Assembly (NCBI GenBank): GCA_024278345.1
Contig: JAJRTK010000501.1
Location: 1-20,742 of the forward strand
DNA: 20,742 nt
Direction: 5' to 3'
From: a bacterium
GTDB taxonomy: Bacteria > CSSED10-310 > JAJRTK01
Below are positions 167-20,742 of this stretch, piece after piece (the stretch's first letter is position 1; every line of letters begins with the position of its first letter). Below the pieces are notes generated by a model. The model made no database searches. It was not told the origin of the DNA and saw only the letters and a program-made list of their open reading frames with translations. A program made the position numbers and the translations under genes.

Positions 167-2977
167 TCAAAGCTCCGGCTGTCCAGACCTGGTTGTGGTG
201 GGCCGCGTTTCACTTCCCGCCGATGTGGTGGTTGCAGTTTCAAAGTCTCCGGCCAGCACTTTGGACATGCGGTGGGGCTCAAAATATTGGTTCAAAACCC
301 GGCGAAGGTCCTCCGGAGTGGTCGCCAGAACGTCAGCCAGTTGGTTCCCGCGGAATCTCAAATCTCGACCGGTGAACAGGTCGTCCGCAAGCATGGAAGC
401 GATCACGCGGTCGCGAGTGAGGCGGGCTTCCTCACTTTGCTGGTAGCTCATTTTCGCTTCCTCGAACTCCTTTGGCTCGATGCCATCTTCCAGAATTTTT
501 TGAATCTCTTCTTCCACCATTTCCAGTGCTCGGTTCGCATTTTGAGGAGCGCAGATGGCGCCGGCCAAAAAAATTGCATTCTCCTCGAAAGAGCTGGAGC
601 GGACGCTGGAAAAGGCGCCATAAGAGATTCCTTCTTTTTGCCGGAGCCGGTCAAGAAGGCGGCTCCGAGCACTGGCCCCAAGAATATAGTTGCCCAACTT
701 GAGTGCGGCGTAATCCGGATGAGTATCGCTGATGGGCATGTTCTGTGCGACGCCGATGGCAGCCATCGCCTTGTCGGGCAGTTGAAACGTCGTCGTTCGG
801 GGCGGGACGTCGGGAATGTACGGGCGCTTGACCCGCTCGTAAGGGGTCGGATTTTCCCAGTCTCCAAGCAGTTGCTCCACCAGGTTTTCGATCTTTCCTG
901 GATCAAAATCTCCCACCAGAACCAATTCGCTCCGGCTGGCTCCGTAGATTTCCCGGTACAGACGTCTCATCTCTTCGATCTGAAGCTCCCGTAAATCCTC
1001 CAGTTTCTCCACGATGCTCGGTTTGTGCCGGACATCGGAGCGTGGCCAGGGGTCGGCGAGCCTGGAAAGTTCCGAGAAGCCCAGTGCCATGGGGTCCTGA
1101 AGATACTGCTCCAGTTTTGAGATCTTCTCTTTCTTGAAGCGCCCGAATTCGTGCTCCGAAAGAGCGGGTTTCCGGAGACATTCCGCAAGGATCTCAAGGA
1201 ATTGAGGAAGGGAGTCCCGGATGGTCGTAAACCGGAAGATCGCGGTTGCGTCGATTTCTCCGACAGCGGAAATCTCGACTTTCAGACGATCAAAAGCATC
1301 TTGAACGTCCTGGTACGACCGGCTTTCTGTTCCGCGGAGCAAAAGCTCCGGAAGCAGGGAAGCGGCCGTTGTTCGTCCCTGAAGCCTCTCTTCCGACCCT
1401 ACGTGGAGATTGAGGATCCCCGTCACTGTCCGACCTCTTGTCTTCTTGGGTACGAAGGCCAACTGGAGGCCCACCGGCAGTTTTTTCCGGACCAGCCGAT
1501 CTTCAATGGCATCGAGGCTTGCTTGGAGCACCTCTCCTTCCTCGATTTTTTCTCGTTCCTCGTACTGCTCCACCGCTTTGGCCACATCGACTGAAGAGAT
1601 GGCCGGTGCTCGCTGGGGAGTGTCCGTGGGAATGAAGAGGCCCGCCGTTCGGTTCGACTGGATCAAGAACTGCTCGGCGAAGCGCTGGATCTTATCAGCG
1701 GTCAACTTGCTGATTCGCTCCCGGTGGAGGAGCATGAGCCGCCAGTCTCCCTGTGCAGCCCACTCAGACAGCTCAACCCCAACGCGAGAACTGTCGGCCA
1801 GCGAAAGCTCAATCTCCCTGAGGGCTCGGGCGCGGAAGCGCTCCAATTCTTCCGCTTTTACGGGCTGACTGGAGAACCCCTCCACGATATCCACGAGCTT
1901 TGCCAGAACTGGGTCGAGCTCGCTGCCCTTTTTCACCGTCGCGAAGACCTCCAGCGTCCCCGGTTCAGCCCAAGCGTACGACTCTCCGTTCACCTCGGCT
2001 GCCGAGCCAGTTTCTACCAGTGCCTTGTAAAGGCGCCCCGCCGGCTTGTTGGTCAAGATATGAACCAGCGCCTCTTGAGCCACGAAATCCTCGTGGGAAC
2101 CAGGTAGGCCGTGGTAAAGGATGCCCACTGCCCCCACATCCCCCGTACGCCTCAGGACGACTCTCCGCTCTCCGTCCTGAACCGGTTCCACGGTGTACGT
2201 TGCCGGAAGTTGCCTCTCGGGGCGGGGAAGAGCTCCAAAATGTTTTGCCGCCAGCTCAAGCGCGTCATCGGTTTCGAACCCTCCGGCAACGATTAGCATC
2301 GCGTTATCCGGCTGGTAGTAGCGCTTGTAGAACGCACGAAGATTCTCGATGGGCACATGCTCGATATCGCTCTTGGAGCCGATGGTCGATTTTCCGTAGT
2401 TGTGCCACAGATAGGCTGTGGACATCATCCGTTCTTCCAGGATCTGAACTGGCTGGTTCTCGCCCATTTCGAATTCATTGCGGACGACGGAGAATTCCGT
2501 TGCCAGGTCTTCCTTGGAGATCGGGCTTTGGAGCATCCGGTCGGCCTCCAAGCCCAGCACGTAGTCCAGATTCTCTCCTTTGGCTGGGAAGGTTTCGAAG
2601 TAATTCGTCCGATCCACCCAGGTCGTCCCGTTGAACCTCGCTCCATGATCTTCCAGCAGTTTCCAGATATTGGGAAAGCGTGGAGTCCCTTTAAACATCA
2701 GATGTTCCAGAAGATGCGCCATTCCCGTTTCGCCGTATCCCTCGTGCCTGGAACCGACGAAGTAGGTGATATTCACGGTGATCTTCGAGCTGCTCCTGTC
2801 TGGAAAAAGTAAAAGCTTCAATCCGTTGTCAAAACGGTATTCCGTAATACCTTCCACCGACACAACTTTCGTAGGAAGGGAAAGGGAGGGGCGCGACGTC
2901 GAATGGGGATCTCGTTCTGCGTGGGTTATCATGGGGAATACCAAGGCAACGAAGGTGAAAACTGGAAGAAAGCGCAT
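167..2977 (-). CDS. Exported M16-family zinc peptidase (insulinase/pitrilysin type, two-domain)
   Basis: This is a predicted zinc metallopeptidase of family M16, which degrades peptides and small proteins in the periplasm. The inverted zinc motif HLLEH lies at residues 88-92. The third metal ligand is probably Glu168 in VVRNEFE, 76 residues after the second His, which is the usual M16 spacing. The C-terminal half repeats the fold (GISYGAFSS region) but has no HxxEH: the equivalent place reads LLPELLLRGT, so it is the usual inactive half of the clamshell. I chose ATG 2977 because a GGAGAAG ribosome site lies 8 bases upstream and the protein then begins with a signal peptide, MRFLPVFTFVALVFPMITHA. 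The frame is open to 3094, but that extension adds a non-hydrophobic leader. The length of 936 aa is normal for fused two-domain M16 proteins. The gene stands alone, divergent from ssb. The family is certain; the substrate is unknown. Confidence 0.93.
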   Translation of the reverse strand: MRFLPVFTFVALVFPMITHAERDPHSTSRPSLSLPTKVVSVEGITEYRFDNGLKLLLFPDRSSSKITVNITYFVGSRHEGYGETGMAHLLEHLMFKGTPRFPNIWKLLEDHGARFNGTTWVDRTNYFETFPAKGENLDYVLGLEADRMLQSPISKEDLATEFSVVRNEFEMGENQPVQILEERMMSTAYLWHNYGKSTIGSKSDIEHVPIENLRAFYKRYYQPDNAMLIVAGGFETDDALELAAKHFGALPRPERQLPATYTVEPVQDGERRVVLRRTGDVGAVGILYHGLPGSHEDFVAQEALVHILTNKPAGRLYKALVETGSAAEVNGESYAWAEPGTLEVFATVKKGSELDPVLAKLVDIVEGFSSQPVKAEELERFRARALREIELSLADSSRVGVELSEWAAQGDWRLMLLHRERISKLTADKIQRFAEQFLIQSNRTAGLFIPTDTPQRAPAISSVDVAKAVEQYEEREKIEEGEVLQASLDAIEDRLVRKKLPVGLQLAFVPKKTRGRTVTGILNLHVGSEERLQGRTTAASLLPELLLRGTESRSYQDVQDAFDRLKVEISAVGEIDATAIFRFTTIRDSLPQFLEILAECLRKPALSEHEFGRFKKEKISKLEQYLQDPMALGFSELSRLADPWPRSDVRHKPSIVEKLEDLRELQIEEMRRLYREIYGASRSELVLVGDFDPGKIENLVEQLLGDWENPTPYERVKRPYIPDVPPRTTTFQLPDKAMAAIGVAQNMPISDTHPDYAALKLGNYILGASARSRLLDRLRQKEGISYGAFSSVRSSSFEENAIFLAGAICAPQNANRALEMVEEEIQKILEDGIEPKEFEEAKMSYQQSEEARLTRDRVIASMLADDLFTGRDLRFRGNQLADVLATTPEDLRRVLNQYFEPHRMSKVLAGDFETATTTSAGSETRPTTTRSGQPEL

Positions 2978-3404
2978 GGAAATGACTTCTCCGTGAGGTC
3001 TATGGATGAAAGGCCCTATTTTCTTTTGTGGAGCATAGAGAAGCTGATGACTGGAAGATTGAACCGGATTCGTTTGGGAGGTCGGAGCTGACAAGGGGAG
3101 TTGCCAGGAGCGTCAAGTCCGTTGACAGTTTTCTCCAGCTCCTTGGTTGTTTCCCGACTTTGTGGGTCGTGTGCGGCCTTTCTTAGGCTGCCTTCTGTTC
3201 CTTTCCCTGGAAACCCCGCTGCGGTACGAGGAGTGATTCCGCTTGTGCTGTTCGCGTTTCATTGCCAGCCCGATGGGTCTCCAACCCGTCTCCGTGGACA
3301 GAGTGGATAAAAGTTGGCATGACTCCTGCTGTATACTGAGGCAACTCGGGAACGCGGAAGAGCCGTGACTACCGGAGTCAACGTCAACGAAGAGGGTAGG
3401 AACC
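2978..3404. other. Divergent intergenic region between M16 peptidase and ssb
   Basis: This is 427 bases with no convincing gene. It must hold the start signals of both flanking genes. A small imperfect hairpin lies at 3272-3290, with arms GATGGGT and ACCCGTC and loop CTCCA. A promoter-like stretch near 3314-3337 is listed separately. No tRNA fold or repeat of the hairpin family is seen here. Confidence 0.6.
3314..3337 (+). promoter_or_regulatory. Possible promoter of ssb (sigma-54-like or -10-like)
   Basis: The sequence TTGGCATGACTCCTGCT has GG at 3316-3317 and GC at 3328-3329, exactly ten bases apart. This is the spacing of a sigma-54 -24/-12 promoter (TGGCACG-N4-TTGCW), with two mismatches. 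The TATACT directly after it (3332-3337) could instead be a sigma-70 -10 box, but no good -35 box lies 16-18 bases before it. Either start would give a leader of about 55-65 bases before the ssb ATG. The evidence is pattern only. Confidence 0.25.
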
Positions 3405-3863
3405 ATGTTGAACAGCTTTGTCGGAATCGGTCGCATTGGACAGGACGCGGAAATTGGAACCACGAGCCGAGGCGAGCCCATGGCGCGATTCTCCGTTGCT
3501 ATCCCACGCTCCAGGAAGCGGGAAGATGGGTTGGAACCCGATTGGATTCGGTGCATGCTCTTTGGTTCGCGGGCGGCTACGCTGGGCCCCTATTTGAGCA
3601 AGGGGAAGTTGATCGGCATCCGAGGGCGCCTTAACAGCTACCGAACGATTGGTGACAAGCCCCGAACACACCTCAATATCGATGTGAGCGGGGTGGATTT
3701 CTTGGAGCGGCCAAGGCAAATCGAATCAAGGAGCCATGCGGTTTCGGAGGCCGTAGGCCGCGGAGCGACTCCGGAGCCGGTTGTTCAACCCGAGCCCCCA
3801 AAACCGGTTCGGAAAGCTCCGCGCCGTGGTAGGAAAAGCAAAGCCACGGCGCTCGCCATTTGA
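3405..3863 (+). CDS. ssb: Single-stranded DNA-binding protein with atypical basic C-terminus
   Basis: This protein binds single-stranded DNA during replication, recombination and repair in the cytoplasm. Residues 1-103 form a recognisable SSB OB-fold: MLNSFVGIGRIGQDAEI at the start, then RFSVAIPR, DWIRCMLFG, LSKGKLIGIRGRL and VDFLERPR. The ATG at 3405 follows GAGGG by 8 bases. The 152-aa length is normal, but the tail (about 104-152) is Pro- and Arg/Lys-rich and ends in KAPRRGRKSKATALAI. The acidic tip (DDDIPF-like) that recruits partner proteins in most bacterial SSBs is missing. The gene is single, divergent from the M16 gene and convergent with the DsbA-like gene. It could be the only SSB or a secondary paralogue; the tail hints at the latter. 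Confidence 0.9.
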   Translation: MLNSFVGIGRIGQDAEIGTTSRGEPMARFSVAIPRSRKREDGLEPDWIRCMLFGSRAATLGPYLSKGKLIGIRGRLNSYRTIGDKPRTHLNIDVSGVDFLERPRQIESRSHAVSEAVGRGATPEPVVQPEPPKPVRKAPRRGRKSKATALAI

Positions 3864-3878
3864 GGCGTTGGGTTCTCT

Positions 3879-3921
3879 TTGCCGGTGGAGTCCACGAAGG
3901 ATGGTACTCCGCCGGGCAAAG
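3879..3921. terminator. Imperfect hairpin between convergent ssb and DsbA-like genes
   Basis: TTTGCCGGTGGAGT (3879 onward) can pair with ACTCCGCCGGGCAAA (3907-3921), with one bulged base, a T-G pair and a loop near ACGAAGGAT. It lies 15 bases past the ssb stop codon and about 35 bases past the end of the leftward gene. It could therefore end transcription from both sides. There is no clear T tract on either strand, so it is at best a weak or Rho-assisted site. Confidence 0.35.
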
Positions 3922-3956
3922 AAGTCATGACTTGCGCAGGGGAACCCATTGACTCC

Positions 3957-4760
3957 TTATTCGGGCTGTTCCGGGGTATCTCCTTTCGCTTTCCGCTTCA
4001 GACGTTCGATAATCTCTTCGAACTTGGCCGGAGGATAGGCGCCTCGGACGGGGATCCCGTTGAGAAGGAAGCCGGGTGTACCGGTGAACTTGAAGGAGCG
4101 GGCTTCCTGAGAATCTTCGGCGATAATTTTCAGGATTTCCGTGCTGTCGGCGTCTTTCAGCATTTTTTCCACGTTGACGCCAAGCTTCTTGGCCGTGTCC
4201 AGATAGAAGTCATGGCCCATCTGTTTCTGGTTTTCAAAGATAGCATCGTGGAACTTCCAGGCCAGGTCCTGGGATTGGAGGGAGATCGCCTCCATGTACC
4301 GCGCCGAGGGCATCGCTTCCGGATGGATGTCTAGTGGAAGATGCTTGTAGACGAAGCGAAGCTGGTCACCATATTTTTCCCTAAGCGCCCGGACGGTTTG
4401 GTAGCCCCGTGCACAATAAGGGCACTGGAAATCGGAGTACTCCACCAGAGTGAAGGGAGCGTCGGGGTTTCCTCGAATCCTGGTATCGGAGCCAACCTTT
4501 GGCGTCATGGGGTTCTCGAAGGCCTTTTCAAACTCCTCTTCCTGAGCCTTGGCCTGTGTTTTGGCATCTTGTGCTCGGGCTTCGGACGCAGCCTGAGAGA
4601 CAACCTCAAGGAGCTCCTGCCGGTTTTCCCGGAGCACATCCATCAGAATGTCGGGATTTTTGCGAAGAGCTTCTTCCAGCTCTGTTCGCGAAAGCTCGGA
4701 AAAGGCTGGGGATGTCGTCAGAATGGCTGTTGCTGCAAGCAGCCATGAGGCGAGCTTCAT
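3957..4760 (-). CDS. DsbA-family periplasmic thiol:disulfide oxidoreductase
   Basis: This is an exported thioredoxin-fold enzyme that makes or rearranges disulfide bonds in periplasmic proteins. The active site CPYC is at residues 113-116 within VEYSDFQCPYC. The cis-proline loop is GTPGF, with Pro229 preceded by Thr. A signal peptide, MKLASWLLAATAILTTSPAF, is followed by a helical segment (about 22-85) with ALRKNPDILMDVLRENRQEL. That segment resembles the N-terminal oligomerisation region of ScsC/Com1-type proteins. ATG 4760 was preferred over the longer frame to 4802 because GGAG lies 9 bases upstream and it places the signal peptide first. The mature length suits this group (267 aa in all). 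It is the last gene of the leftward cluster, 142 bases beyond the porin gene. Whether it works as oxidase or isomerase cannot be told from sequence. Confidence 0.9.
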   Translation of the reverse strand: MKLASWLLAATAILTTSPAFSELSRTELEEALRKNPDILMDVLRENRQELLEVVSQAASEARAQDAKTQAKAQEEEFEKAFENPMTPKVGSDTRIRGNPDAPFTLVEYSDFQCPYCARGYQTVRALREKYGDQLRFVYKHLPLDIHPEAMPSARYMEAISLQSQDLAWKFHDAIFENQKQMGHDFYLDTAKKLGVNVEKMLKDADSTEILKIIAEDSQEARSFKFTGTPGFLLNGIPVRGAYPPAKFEEIIERLKRKAKGDTPEQPE

Positions 4761-6282: not shown

Positions 6283-7958
6283 AGGTTCACATCCAGCAAG
6301 AGTCGGTTGATGGCTTTTCCGTGCTTGTCGGCCAGTATCAAGACGTAACTCCCTAACGGGGCGTTTCGTTCCACCGCCAGAACAAGGTTGATTTGGGTTG
6401 AGTCAATAAACTTCACGGAGCGTATCCGGATGCTCTTCGTGGGGCGATTCCCTCGAAAAAACCGCGGCACGAGCCCCTCCCGAAGGTTTCTGCCTTGAAC
6501 CTTGATCTTAACGCTCCGGCCGCGCCGGGCGGCGTTTGGGTGAATTCTCTCCAGGACTGGAGCTGCCTGCCCGGGAGTCGGTTCCAGTCTCGGGGTTGCC
6601 ACGGGGCTTGGGCGTCGCGTTGGCCTGAGGGGCGGGGTAGGCACCCTTTTGGTGGGGGCAGGCGTCTTGCTGGCCCATGGCTTTGGAGTTGGCGGAGGCG
6701 TGGGCGGCTGGGATGGTGTCGGGCTCATGGAGCGGGAGCGAGGGACGTGGCGTGCTGGTCGTTCCGTCTCCAGGGCGCGGGCCGCGGCCACTCGGTCCGT
6801 GGGAGAAGCGGACGGGGATGGAGAAGGAGGTGAGGCGGCGGGAGAAGCCGTTGGCGACTTGCCTTCACGGGCGATGGGGGAAAAGGGGTCACCGGAGATG
6901 CCTGGAATCTTGGTGGAGCCCGCTCTAGAGATCCCCGGAGGAGCGGGATCTATCCCAGGGGAGTGAGTGCGATTCGCGAGGAAACCGATAGCGGCGATGA
7001 GTCCAACAGCCAGCAGCCCCACGGGCCATAGAATACGCTTTCGAGGCTCGGCCCCGAAAGCGTCTCCCGTGAGGATTTCGCGGTTTGCAGTGTCCAGAGT
7101 CAGAGTCGAGGGAGAAAGGGGGAGAACCTCCGAAGTGCCTACCACCGGAGGTGCGTCGGACTCTTCCGCCAGCGGCAGATGCTCGATGACTTTTGTGAGG
7201 GCATTGAGGTTTTCAGGCCTGTGCGAGGGGTTCTTTTCGATGCACCCCATAACGGATCGAGCCAGTTCCCGGGGAAGCTCGGGGCAGGCCTCTTCAAGGG
7301 GAGTCGGGTGATGGTTGATCACCCGGTACAGGCAGGCTTGGAGATTGACGGCCCGAAACGGGTTGATGCCGCAGAGGAGCTCGTAGAAGAGGACGCCCAG
7401 AGAGTAGATGTCCGACTGCGCCGAATAGGTCGAATTGGCAAGGATCTCAGGCGCCATGTAGAGCGGCGTCCCGAGGATCGTGCCCGAGGCGGTCAGTTCT
7501 GACTCGTGACCTCGGGCGATACCGAAGTCCATGAGCTTACAGGTTCCGTCGGGAAGTACTTGCACGTTCCCGGGCTTGATATCCCGGTGGAGCACGTCGT
7601 GAGCGTGGGCATAGGCCAGGGCCTTGCAAAGCCCGCCCATGATCCTAGCCTTTTCCTTGAGAGGCCTTGGATCTTGCATCCAGGATTGGAGCTCGACCCC
7701 CTCAAGAAATTCCATGACCAGGTAGGGCTGTGTACCTTGCAGGCCAAAGTCATAGAGGATGACGATGTTCGGGTGAGAAAGCTTGCCAACGATCCGTGCT
7801 TCGTGAAGGAAACGCTCGCGGTTTTTCGGGGCTGCGGTGGTCATGATCTTGACGGCGACTTGCCGGCCAATAAAGGGGTCCTGGGCCAGGAACACCCTTC
7901 CCATTCCGCCCTGCCCAAGAAGGCGGATGATCCTGTATTTTCCGATCTTTTGGCTCAT
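6279..7958 (-). CDS. Membrane-anchored Ser/Thr protein kinase with Pro-rich linker and IPT/TIG-like sensor domain
   Basis: This is a Hanks-type kinase of the PknB group. The cytoplasmic kinase domain (about 8-262) is intact: glycine loop GQGGMG (15-20), ATP-binding Lys37, Glu53 of helix C, catalytic loop HRDIKPGN (Asp126), DFG (144-146) and GTPLYMAPE. One membrane span lies at about 308-328 (WPVGLLAVGLIAAIGFLA). The outer part begins with about 130 residues rich in Pro, Ser and Thr. It ends in a beta-sandwich-like domain (about 467-559, PVLERIHPNAARRGRSVKIKVQG and following) that resembles IPT/TIG Ig folds and could sense a wall or surface ligand. Only a weak ribosome site (GTGAGA) precedes the ATG. 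The ATGA overlap with the porin gene makes that barrel a candidate partner. The kinase call is certain; the ligand and substrates are unknown. Confidence 0.95.
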   Translation of the reverse strand: MSQKIGKYRIIRLLGQGGMGRVFLAQDPFIGRQVAVKIMTTAAPKNRERFLHEARIVGKLSHPNIVILYDFGLQGTQPYLVMEFLEGVELQSWMQDPRPLKEKARIMGGLCKALAYAHAHDVLHRDIKPGNVQVLPDGTCKLMDFGIARGHESELTASGTILGTPLYMAPEILANSTYSAQSDIYSLGVLFYELLCGINPFRAVNLQACLYRVINHHPTPLEEACPELPRELARSVMGCIEKNPSHRPENLNALTKVIEHLPLAEESDAPPVVGTSEVLPLSPSTLTLDTANREILTGDAFGAEPRKRILWPVGLLAVGLIAAIGFLANRTHSPGIDPAPPGISRAGSTKIPGISGDPFSPIAREGKSPTASPAASPPSPSPSASPTDRVAAARALETERPARHVPRSRSMSPTPSQPPTPPPTPKPWASKTPAPTKRVPTPPLRPTRRPSPVATPRLEPTPGQAAPVLERIHPNAARRGRSVKIKVQGRNLREGLVPRFFRGNRPTKSIRIRSVKFIDSTQINLVLAVERNAPLGSYVLILADKHGKAINRLLLDVNL

Positions 7959-8017
7959 GAATTTGTCTCACACGAAGTATCCAAAGACCCCGGTTTACGG
8001 GCCTCTATTCGCCATGG

Positions 8018-8283
8018 GTATCCACGCAAAGCGGGACAAGCAAGGAAACAAAAGGGAAGCCGCGCAGCGTACAAAAATGTGGGCTGGGATCCCGTTGCCC
8101 TTTGTTGCAACGGGAAGTTGAGTTCGCTCCCTGGTGGGTGCAGGGTGAAGCCCTGCCAGGGGACCGGGGACAGAGTCCCCGGACAACCTTCGAGTCACGC
8201 AAACGTGACCCGCCGAGCGGAGTGAGGCGCACCCTGCCGCTCGCGATTCCCAATTCCCGGAGTGTCCCGCTTTGCGTGGATAC
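8018..8283. mobile_element. MITE-like element with 21-base terminal inverted repeats and internal hairpin array
   Basis: The left end, GTATCCACGC-AAAGCGGGACA (8018-8038), is repeated perfectly in inverted orientation at 8263-8283. The 266-base element has no coding capacity. Inside is a run of perfect hairpins: 8091-8114 (8-base stem CCCGTTGC), 8140-8156 (GCAGGG/CCCTGC), 8164-8182 (CCGGGGA/TCCCCGG) and 8194-8209 (GTCACG-CAAA-CGTGAC). A CGAGC-type module follows at 8214. The stretch 8126-8171 matches 20697-20742 at 44 of 46 bases. No clear target-site duplication is visible at the ends. It sits between the start of the kinase gene and the end of the BNR gene, so the kinase promoter lies in or just outside it. 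A non-autonomous transposable element or a structured interspersed repeat both fit. Confidence 0.65.
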
Positions 8284-8332
8284 TCTCATTGTTTACCTTG
8301 ACTCATGGACCCGGAGCTCCAATCAGTGCAGC

Positions 8333-11300
8333 CTACTCCTCCTTCTGCCAGGCGGGGAGTCGTCCGGGAGTCCAGGGCGCTCCCGCTTCTTCCAGTTCTC
8401 TTTCCAAAGCTCGGAGATCTTTCTCAATAAGTTGCCTCAGTTTTGGCAGGTTCTTAGAAAATGCATCACTGGCAAGTTCGTAAGAGAGCTTATGGGTGGC
8501 AGTTGGCTCCGCGGAAGAGCTCCACTGGCCCCGGACGATCTCTTGGATCCGCTGGGAAATGGAGCGTGGGGCGGGGGCATTGTACCGGGCTCGGATCGGA
8601 TCGCCATCGAGCTCGATGATCAAGTCCTCCAAACGGCTGCGAATCTCTATCGCGCGACTCCTCATCGCCTCGGTGGCTCCAGGAGTCTCAAACAGTGCCT
8701 TGTCGATGTGATCGAGATGCGTTGCCGCTTCCCGGGCCGCCTTGGAAGCTCCGAAGACGGCTCTTTGCAGTCGGGCGGTACGCTTACGGAAAGCAAGGAC
8801 GGCGTCGGGGTCCCAGGCGGGCAGAATTGCGGCGCCAACAGGGACCGTCTCGAAGGTTCGCGGCTGGCCGATCTTTTTCAGCTTGCCGTCCAGCCGTAAC
8901 GCCATGGAAACGGTGTAAGTTCCAGGGACCGCCATGGGACCCCTTGGAGCGCCCCAATGAGGCCGTTTCGGGATCTCCAGGCTGACAGGTTTCGATGATG
9001 GATAGCGCAAATCCCAGGCGACTCGGTGGAAACCCGCCGTGGCGGGTGCCGTGATCCTCCGGACGACACTGCCGGATTCGTTGCGCACCGTCAGGATGGT
9101 GGCGGGCTTTTCTTGGCGCTCTTCACGCCGAAGCTCGTCCCACGTGGGGAGTTGGATCTCGCGGGCTTCCTTCACGGCTTTTTTCTCCGCCTTGTGGCGC
9201 TTGTCCCGGTCGCTCAGGGGCGTTTCCTTCAAGTAGTAGGTGAAGATAGCGCCGAACGAAGGATTGGGCGCGGCGAAGAAGGAGTCGCCCTGGCTTGCTT
9301 TTCCGTGGCCGCCCAGGCGGCTTCTGGGGATGTACATAGGGGCGTTTGGCACAAGAAAAAGGGACGCCTCTTGCTCCAGGAGTTCCGGAGTGACAAGACG
9401 CAGGGGAGAATAGTCATCCAGAATGTAGAATCCTCGGCCGAAGGTGGCAAGGACCAGTGCGTTGGCCTCTCGTTGAACGGCCAGATCCCGGACGGCAATC
9501 GTGGGGAGGCCTCCCTTGAGGCGGACCCACTGTTCTCCGTCGTCCACGGAGAAATAAAGGCCGAATTCCGTGCCGGAAAAAAGAAGCCCCTGTCGCACGT
9601 GGTCTTCGGCTAGGGCGTGGACGGAGCCACGCTCTGGAAGCCCGCCGACAATGGGTTTCCAACTGGTGCCCCGATCACGGCTCAGAAGGATGTAAGGTTT
9701 GAAATCGCCGCTCTTGTGGTGATCAAAAGCCGCGTACACCGTGTTCGGGTCGTGGCGGGACGCCAGAAGCGCGCTGACATAGGAGAGTTCCGGGATGCCG
9801 GGAATGGACTCCACCTTCCGCCAATGTTCGCCCCCGTCTTCGGTGATTTGAAGGAGTCCGTCATCCGTGCCCACATAGACAAGACCCTCCACCAAGGGGG
9901 ACTCGTCCAGAGCCACGATTGTCCCATAAAACGAAGTACCATCGTGTTTGCCAACGGCATCAACACTCCAGATCCGGCCCATCAACTCCAGCCGGTTCTT
10001 GTCGAGCTGCCGCGTGAGATCCGAACTTACGGCTTTCCAACTGCTTCCTCGGTCGTCGCTTCGAAACAGCTTGTTCGCTGCAAAATAGAGCCGTTTTCCA
10101 GAGTGAGGACTGATGAGGAGCGGTGAATTCCAATTCCAGCGCAGAGGCTCAGTAGCGGGCAGTTCTTCGGGCCGGATGCCGATCCGTTCTCCACTCTGGT
10201 GGTCGTAGCGGACCAGGCCTCCATACTGCCACTGGGAATAGACGATGCTGGGCTCTGCCGGATCGACCTGGGGTTTGAATCCATCCCCGCCCACGGTGAC
10301 ATACCAATCCGCGTTGGTGATCCCCTGCCGGCTGGTGGTGCGCGACGGGCCGCCGAGGGTTGCGTTGTCCTGAGTCCCGCCGTAAATCTTGTAGAAGGGC
10401 CTGGAATTGTCCACAGCCACGCGGTAGAACTGAGTAATGGGGAGATTGTCGAAAAAGCGCCAGGTTTCCCCGCCGTCGTGGCTCTCATAGAGCCCGCCGT
10501 CACAGCCGGAAAGAAGATGCTGGGGCTCGCCGGGATCGACCCAGAGCGCGTGGTTGTCCACGTGCTTGCTCGTGCCGTTGATGGATTGGAAAGTCTTTCC
10601 GCCGTCGCGGGTGACTTGGAGCAAGGTGTCCAGTAGGTAGACACGGTTGGGATCGTGGGGATCGGCTACGATCTCCTGGTAGTAAAAGGGATAGTCCGTT
10701 GTCTTTCCACTTCGCTTTGTCCAGCTCCAGCCTCCGTCGGTGGAGCGGTAAAACCCGCCCGCGTCTCCGGCGGCTTCGATGATGGCGTAGACGACTTCCG
10801 GATTTGTCTCCGAAATGGCAAGTCCGATCTTGCCCATCTCCTTGGAAGGCAAACCGCGCTTGAGCTTCTGCCAACTCTCCCCGCCGTCGGTGGATTTGTA
10901 GAGTCCCGACCCAGGTCCGCCATCGATAAAGCTCCAGACCCGTCGTTCCCGCTGGTACGCGGCGGCGATGAGGATATCGGAGTTTCCGGGGTCCATCACA
11001 ACGTCCGTGACACCGGTGTACTCGTCGATTTCCAGGACCCGCCTCCAGGTCTTGCCGCCATCGGTCGTCTTGTACAGACCTCTTTCGCCGCCAGGCTTCC
11101 AGAGTGGACCTTGCACCGCCGCGAAAACAGTGTCGGGGGCCACGGGATCCACAAGAATCCTCGAAATGTGCTCGCTATGGCGAAGTCCCATATTTTTCCA
11201 GCTCTTGCCCCCGTCCACCGACTTGTAGATGCCGTCTCCATAGGAAACGCTCCGTTGGCTATTCTCTTCCCCCGTTCCGACCCAGACCACCAGAGGATTC

Positions 11301-20295: not shown

Positions 20296-20619
20296 AAATG
20301 TGGGGGCCTCGTCCATCGGTGGTCGGCGGAGCCGACTCTCCCTTTGGTCGGCACCGGCCACCCGGTAAATACGCGAAGCGTACAAAGAGGGGTCCAGGGA
20401 GCTGGCTCCCTGGCGTGGGTCTGATGCCGAGCGTAAGCGAGACGCGGCCCAAGGGGCCGCGGCGCAAGCTCCCAGCGGAGATTCGGAGGCCGCCTCCGCC
20501 GGGTTCCAGGGCTGGAAGACCCGGGCTGGACCCGAAGTTCACTGGGTGGCCTGGTCCGAGCGACAGCGAGAGCTGCCGAAGGCACCAACGATCACCAGCT
20601 CCCAACAAGGATAATCTGG
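20296..20619. repeat. Hairpin-module array, right edge
   Basis: This non-coding stretch is built from short palindromes with 1-4-base loops. They are GTCGGC-GGA-GCCGAC (20322-20336), TACGC-GAA-GCGTA (20370-20382), CCAGGGAG-CTGG-CTCCCTGG (20394-20413), GCGGCCC-AAG-GGGCCGC (20444-20460) and GGAGGC-C-GCCTCC (20485-20497). Two CGAGC-N4-GCGAG modules lie near 20429 and 20558. The part 20468-20522 repeats the block at 10-68. The segment GCGTACAAAGAGGGGTCCAG recurs in modified form inside the 8018-8283 element and at 20663-20690. The array starts shortly after the stop of the six-cysteine gene and may contribute to its transcript end. Confidence 0.7.
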
Positions 20620-20742
20620 GTATCAACGTAAGGCGGGACACCCACGAAAAGAACGACGCGGAGCGTCGTACATAAACGTGGGTCCAGGGAGCGATGGCTC
20701 CCTGGTGGGTGCAGGGCAAAGCCCTGCCAGGGGACCGGGGAC
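20620..20742. mobile_element. Second copy of the MITE-like element, cut by the window end
   Basis: The stretch 20620-20640 (GTATCAACGT-AAGGCGGGACA) matches the left terminal repeat of the 8018-8283 element at 18 of 21 positions and in the same orientation. Downstream are hairpins ACGACGC-GGA-GCGTCGT (20653-20669), CCAGGGAGC-GATG-GCTCCCTGG (20684-20705) and GCAGGGC-AAA-GCCCTGC (20711-20727). The last 46 bases match 8126-8171 at 44 positions. The window stops inside the next hairpin, so the right terminal repeat is not visible. Confidence 0.65.

Follow-up and report, generated by a model that had tools for sequence, protein, structure and literature searches.

A short element with 23-bp terminal inverted repeats and its predicted DUF6399 transposase in a bacterium of the lineage CSSED10-310

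The window, the whole stretch of 20,742 nucleotides that was analysed, is one whole contig. At positions 8016 to 8285 it carries an element that is, with near certainty, a MITE, i.e., a short DNA transposon that contains no gene and is bounded by 23-bp terminal inverted repeats (TIRs). The preceding gene (Sortilin/BNR-repeat) ends 47 bp from the element, and a Ser/Thr kinase gene on the same strand starts 57 bp past it. The initial annotation had placed the element ahead of a kinase-porin pair; the Ser/Thr kinase gene was recovered, and the "porin" had no Pfam match. A search of 7900-8450 for sigma-70-like promoters and intrinsic terminators gave no match, and an effect of the element on kinase expression is possible. 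A different repeat (GCTCCCAGCGGAGGTCCGGAGGC...GCCTCCGCCGGGTTCCAGGGCTGGAAGCCCTGG) lies close to both contig ends, at 10-69 and 20468-20525, with similar sequence in loci L070, L101 and L043. The features of the element and of its second copy are as follows.

8016..8285, no strand: complete MITE copy of 270 bp; limits taken from those copies whose 8-9-bp target duplications are exact; whole element also matched across the genome
8016..8038, plus strand: left terminal inverted repeat GGGTATCCACGCAAAGCGGGACA, 23 bp; 355 genome copies of the 23-mer at ≤3 mismatches
8090..8115, no strand: internal hairpin TCCCGTTGC/GCAACGGGA, from the fold; many copies have a CCAGGGAGC/GCTCCCTGG module instead
8140..8156, no strand: internal hairpin GCAGGGT/GCCCTGC, from the fold; belongs to the shared cassette
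8164..8182, no strand: internal hairpin CCGGGGAC/GTCCCCGG, from the fold; compensatory GAT/ATC and GCC/GGC versions elsewhere
8194..8209, no strand: internal hairpin GTCACG/CGTGAC, from the fold; 0 to 4 tandem units in other copies
8263..8285, minus strand: right terminal inverted repeat, minus-strand reading GAGTATCCACGCAAAGCGGGACA (GA variant)
20618..20742, plus strand: second MITE copy with left end GGGTATCAACGTAAGGCGGGACA (20618-20640); stops at the contig end

The perfect 21-base inverted ends reported earlier were found as an exact match between 8018-8038 and 8263-8283. Such a pair is indeed beyond chance, with about 3e-6 pairs within 300 bp expected in a random 20.7-kb sequence. The spacing between the arms is 224 bases rather than the 225 given before, and the ends extend to 23 bp; they read GGGTATCC... 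generally and GAGTATCC... at the right side of the window copy. As had been stated, no gene is enclosed (0 Pfam families matching overlapping ORFs on both strands). The proposed second copy does start at 20618 (20620 for the 21-mer), with 3 mismatches in the 21-mer and its right end beyond the contig end at 20742.

At ≤3 mismatches, the 23-mer matched 181 forward and 174 reverse positions in the host assembly (6.06 Mb, 550 contigs, 88% complete), and from these 355 ends the number of elements is estimated at roughly 180. The host holds hundreds of paired copies. The reversed pattern, used as a control, had 0 matches in the host, and a scan of 97 other genomes gave a single match, with 3 mismatches. 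Numerous family ends are found no more than a few hundred bases from where a contig stops, indicating that the repeat breaks the host assembly.

Pairing of the ends in the fetched loci gave 46 distinct complete elements, mostly of 190-360 bp. An exact direct repeat directly outside the ends was detected in 17 of the 43 copies with enough flank on both sides (8 bp in 13 copies, 9 bp in 4), compared with a mean of 0.39 and a maximum of 3 exact duplications in 1000 trials with randomly re-paired flanks. Several further host copies have a duplication with one mismatch, and in locus L060 a copy was inserted within the end of another copy, with TATCTACG duplicated. Since the duplications start immediately outside GGGTATCC, the elements end 2 bases beyond the repeat first described, with which the copy limits otherwise coincide. 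The repeated paired ends and the 8-9-bp target duplications together indicate a MITE family. No target duplication flanks the window copy itself; the copy in L002, with the same GA-variant end, has CACCCTTC on both flanks as an exact 8-bp duplication.

The internal hairpins were also borne out. With its ends, the element has a folding energy of -152.5 kcal/mol (z = -8.7 versus shuffled sequence), and the interior without the ends, folded as DNA, has z = -4.8. From one copy to another, hairpins are replaced as whole modules, deleted or repeated in tandem. A shared hairpin cassette (CTCCCTGGTGGGTGCAGGGCRAAGCCCTGCC) is present in 254 copies in the host and in 0 copies in 192 other genomes, and the interior is, on this comparison, a modular hairpin set specific to the host genome. 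Among 19 sequences, compensatory stem changes amounted to 10 cells altered on both sides, versus 2.4 in shuffles and 0-4 with the partner slid, these counts being of sequences and not of events. This pattern could come from selection that favours stems, and equally from copying templated by palindromes. Stability, insulation from transcription, or no role at all are candidates for what the interior hairpins do. The cassette was also found without MITE ends in at least three places, indicating that the history of the interior is partly separate from that of the ends. In L238, L248 and L250 it lies between other shared flanks, TTAACACTCATGGGAGAATCGAACCACCCCG ... GGCGTGTACTTTCATGGTAAC, and so is not confined to the MITE family.

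A second small element, of about 105 bp (TACCATGAAAGTACATGG...CATGCTCGTTA), lies within the MITE terminal repeat, each time at one and the same point (after GGGTATCCACNT). It was seen in differing backgrounds (L069 at 180-400, L100 at 1361, L011, L147, L249 and L043), in one of them as a tandem pair. This element may target the MITE terminal repeat or TA/TTA sites.

The exact 21-mer had no match in a scan of 84,980 species genomes. A degenerate form of the 23-mer matched at least 26 stretches, in a proteobacterial MAG (CAIMUS), Competibacteraceae, SAR324, Crenothrix and Nodosilinea. The Competibacteraceae stretch L077 has 1,724 bp between the ends, with a DUF6399 gene (PF19936, E=1.5e-57) that is frameshifted in this copy; in CAIMUS (L166), 1,725 bp between the ends hold an open 545-codon DUF6399 frame. 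The ends of both are identical to the window ends at 18-19 of 23 positions. A full-length relative with the same ends, which the initial annotation had proposed to look for, therefore exists, and it encodes a DUF6399 protein with DDE-like residues, a predicted transposase. Beside its intact insertion sequence (IS), the CAIMUS genome contains a 352-bp derivative with both ends kept and the interior deleted, as well as several elements of 114-159 bp whose interiors are unrelated and in part palindromic. SAR324 has a 146-bp element with these ends and an exact 8-bp duplication, ATTTTTTA. In Crenothrix polyspora (L084, 1474-2775), of a phylum other than the host's, a tandem array of about seven units of ~193 bp was observed, each containing a MITE-like unit whose ends are related and whose interior (TTCGTGGTGAGC...) is palindromic.

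DUF6399 genes between related ends with an exact 8-bp duplication were found in Nodosilinea (L168, TCCCGATC) and on a Crinalium plasmid (L164, CGTTTTCT). The Crinalium element (1577-4081) spans 2.5 kb and has an extra 149-aa gene without known family between the same ends, possibly a passenger gene. The cyanobacterial genome G266 has 15 DUF6399 matches; a 1,756-bp unit is present there in 11 full-length copies, which are ≥99.7% identical and all (11/11) have an exact 8-bp duplication; a 565-aa DUF6399 frame occupies nearly the whole unit. TIRs and 8-bp duplications also accompany the DUF6399 genes in L180 and L182. On a Thiodictyon plasmid, the copy is flanked by an 8-bp duplication yet has different ends; different ends are recorded for L165. 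The automatic scan for TIRs and duplications around full-length DUF6399 genes found none for L163, L164, L166, L171 and L178; the L164 pair lies beyond the distance of that scan from the gene and was recovered by the end search, and no duplication was found next to the genes in L163, L166, L171 and L178. The distribution of DUF6399 is sporadic (17 of 242 cyanobacterial genomes and 4 of 369 gammaproteobacterial genomes, the latter class label being taken from the organism of the centre genome). Plasmids yielded five DUF6399 records and no match to the MITE itself, and searches of viral contigs for the ends, the DUF6399 protein and the hairpin cassette, and of phages, yielded nothing.

In the host, DUF6399 is present as fragments only, several of them next to or within the same ends. 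On contig C188, a DUF6399 gene end lies about 20 bp inside the end GGGTATTCACTTAAGGCGGGACA, which is identical to the window end at 19 of 23 positions (shuffled ends reach ≤17). Contig C390 holds an 832-bp element that combines the 3' part of DUF6399, at one end, with a standard MITE half at the opposite end, and similar IS/MITE chimeras or deletions are present on C393 and C507. Across the host assembly, which is 88% complete, no intact copy of DUF6399 turned up; an assembly gap may hide the gene, or the family may by now be stranded.

DUF6399 (PF19936) is listed in Pfam with function unknown. Neither Pfam nor NCBIfam names it a transposase, and the literature searched, with incomplete coverage, contained no mention of it. 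Ten full-length DUF6399 proteins share the invariant residues D152-E-T-F, D206 (in a VSD-x-A-x-AL context), D226-x-FH and S-S-x-x-E459-G-R-N-G. An N-terminal helix-turn-helix was matched in 8 of the 10, and the rve integrase core was weakly matched in two (best E=4e-4). The Pfam ISL3 transposase domain matched one of the ten below the cut-off (E=0.035), as did the NCBIfam ISL3 model (best of ten, 0.21); no NCBIfam transposase family reached its cut-off among the matches listed. A profile search of PDB sequences with DUF6399 gave no transposase match, and the sole admissible structure model bearing on a possible RNase-H-like fold (AlphaFold, N-terminal half of the L077 protein) is of low confidence, with a mean pLDDT of 40.4. 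The residue and domain pattern is that of a divergent DDE transposase, pointing to a putative catalytic role.

The repeat ends, boundaries, duplications, linkage of DUF6399 to the ends in several phyla and host IS/MITE chimeras were established by comparison of sequences. From the same comparison we infer that DUF6399 would be the catalytic transposase and would have moved the host MITEs. The mover would be a DDE-type DUF6399 transposase encoded by an IS of about 1.7 kb whose ends are the same. After binding to those ends, it would excise the element, or copy it, and insert it elsewhere, and a staggered cut of the target would produce the 8-bp, sometimes 9-bp, duplications. That putative DUF6399 transposases made and moved the host MITEs is well supported by sequence comparison. 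For the joint reading, a MITE with a DUF6399-family DDE transposase as its mover, we put the probability at roughly 85%. The paired copies, their boundaries, the duplications and the full-length relatives agree with the earlier proposal of a non-autonomous transposable element that depends on an enzyme encoded outside the window.

The MITE could instead have been mobilised by another transposase, e.g., of the ISL3 or IS1595 type, that was lost or is unassembled in the host, with the DUF6399 genes as passengers. The host has no intact DUF6399 gene, and 8-bp target duplications and ends starting with GG are common to the ISL3 and IS1595 families. To ISL3 there is the further likeness of the weak profile match of one DUF6399 protein; however, the ISL3 models do not recognise DUF6399 (E=0.035 in Pfam; 0.21 in NCBIfam, best of ten). 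IS1595 is present in the host and was considered as the parent, but it belongs to another protein family and its host copies carry different ends (GGCTCTATATGCG...). Passenger status also accords poorly with the G266 unit, which has 11/11 duplications and is nearly filled by the 565-aa DUF6399 frame, and with the DDE-like residues kept in the DUF6399 proteins. Another transposase as the mover is therefore unlikely.

A repeated structured RNA gene, or a cis-regulatory RNA before the kinase, would account for the strong fold and the compensatory stem changes among the copies. Against this, the Rfam search of the window element gave 0 matches at the gathering score and no meaningful match nearby, hundreds of copies lie at unrelated sites with target duplications, and the stems are exchanged as whole modules. 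Such an RNA is thus very improbable, and a HEARO/OMEGA-like RNA, which the hairpins had raised, was set aside on the 0 Rfam matches.

Least probable of all is that a single-strand transposase (RAYT/Y1), acting on the hairpins, spread the element as a palindromic repeat of the REP/BIME kind. The dense palindromes, the hairpin cassette without MITE ends and a host 242-aa ORF could be cited for this, but the duplications follow the 23-bp ends rather than the hairpins, and Y1 enzymes are not known to make long TIRs with 8-9-bp duplications outside them. That ORF (L069, C390:22999-23169) is Y1_Tnp/RAYT-like below the Pfam cut-off; with this single weak match and the wrong anatomy, Y1/RAYT was rejected as the mover. 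The duplications outside the ends disfavour such spread, which could survive for movement of the internal cassette only. REP/BIME repeats with RAYT (PMC8266576) are likewise numerous intergenic palindromes joined into mosaics, but REPs have a GTAG-type tag (GTAG/CGTC) and no long terminal repeats, unlike the 23-bp ends and duplications described here.

The MITE with a predicted DUF6399 transposase resembles known bacterial MITEs (MITEAba12, PMC6382973; Coxiella MITEs, PMC5896051) in being short and gene-less, with paired TIRs, target duplications and a high copy number, and in deriving from an IS that supplies the transposase. It differs from them in that the parent IS family is without transposase annotation in Pfam/NCBIfam and in that its interior consists of hairpin modules swapped among copies. 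ISAm1 of Acaryochloris (PMC8763236), a DDE element not assigned to a class, was also considered; with its repeat of 14 bp and size of ~1.5 kb, it is apparently different. As far as shown, the mode of the element is classical, and what is new is DUF6399 as its predicted transposase and the modular hairpin interior. More tentatively, DUF6399 may represent an uncatalogued DDE IS family in several phyla, with the host MITE cassette as a mobile or recombining module of its own, common to elements with different ends and diversified by hairpin swapping and tandem duplication.

Proteins annotated merely as "DUF6399 domain-containing protein" would gain a testable function, that of a transposase. The family accounts for a large repeat set that breaks the host genome assembly, and its signature, GGsTAyC...CGGGACA ends with 8-bp duplications, can serve to look for more copies of the IS and of MITEs in cyanobacteria, gammaproteobacteria and SAR324.
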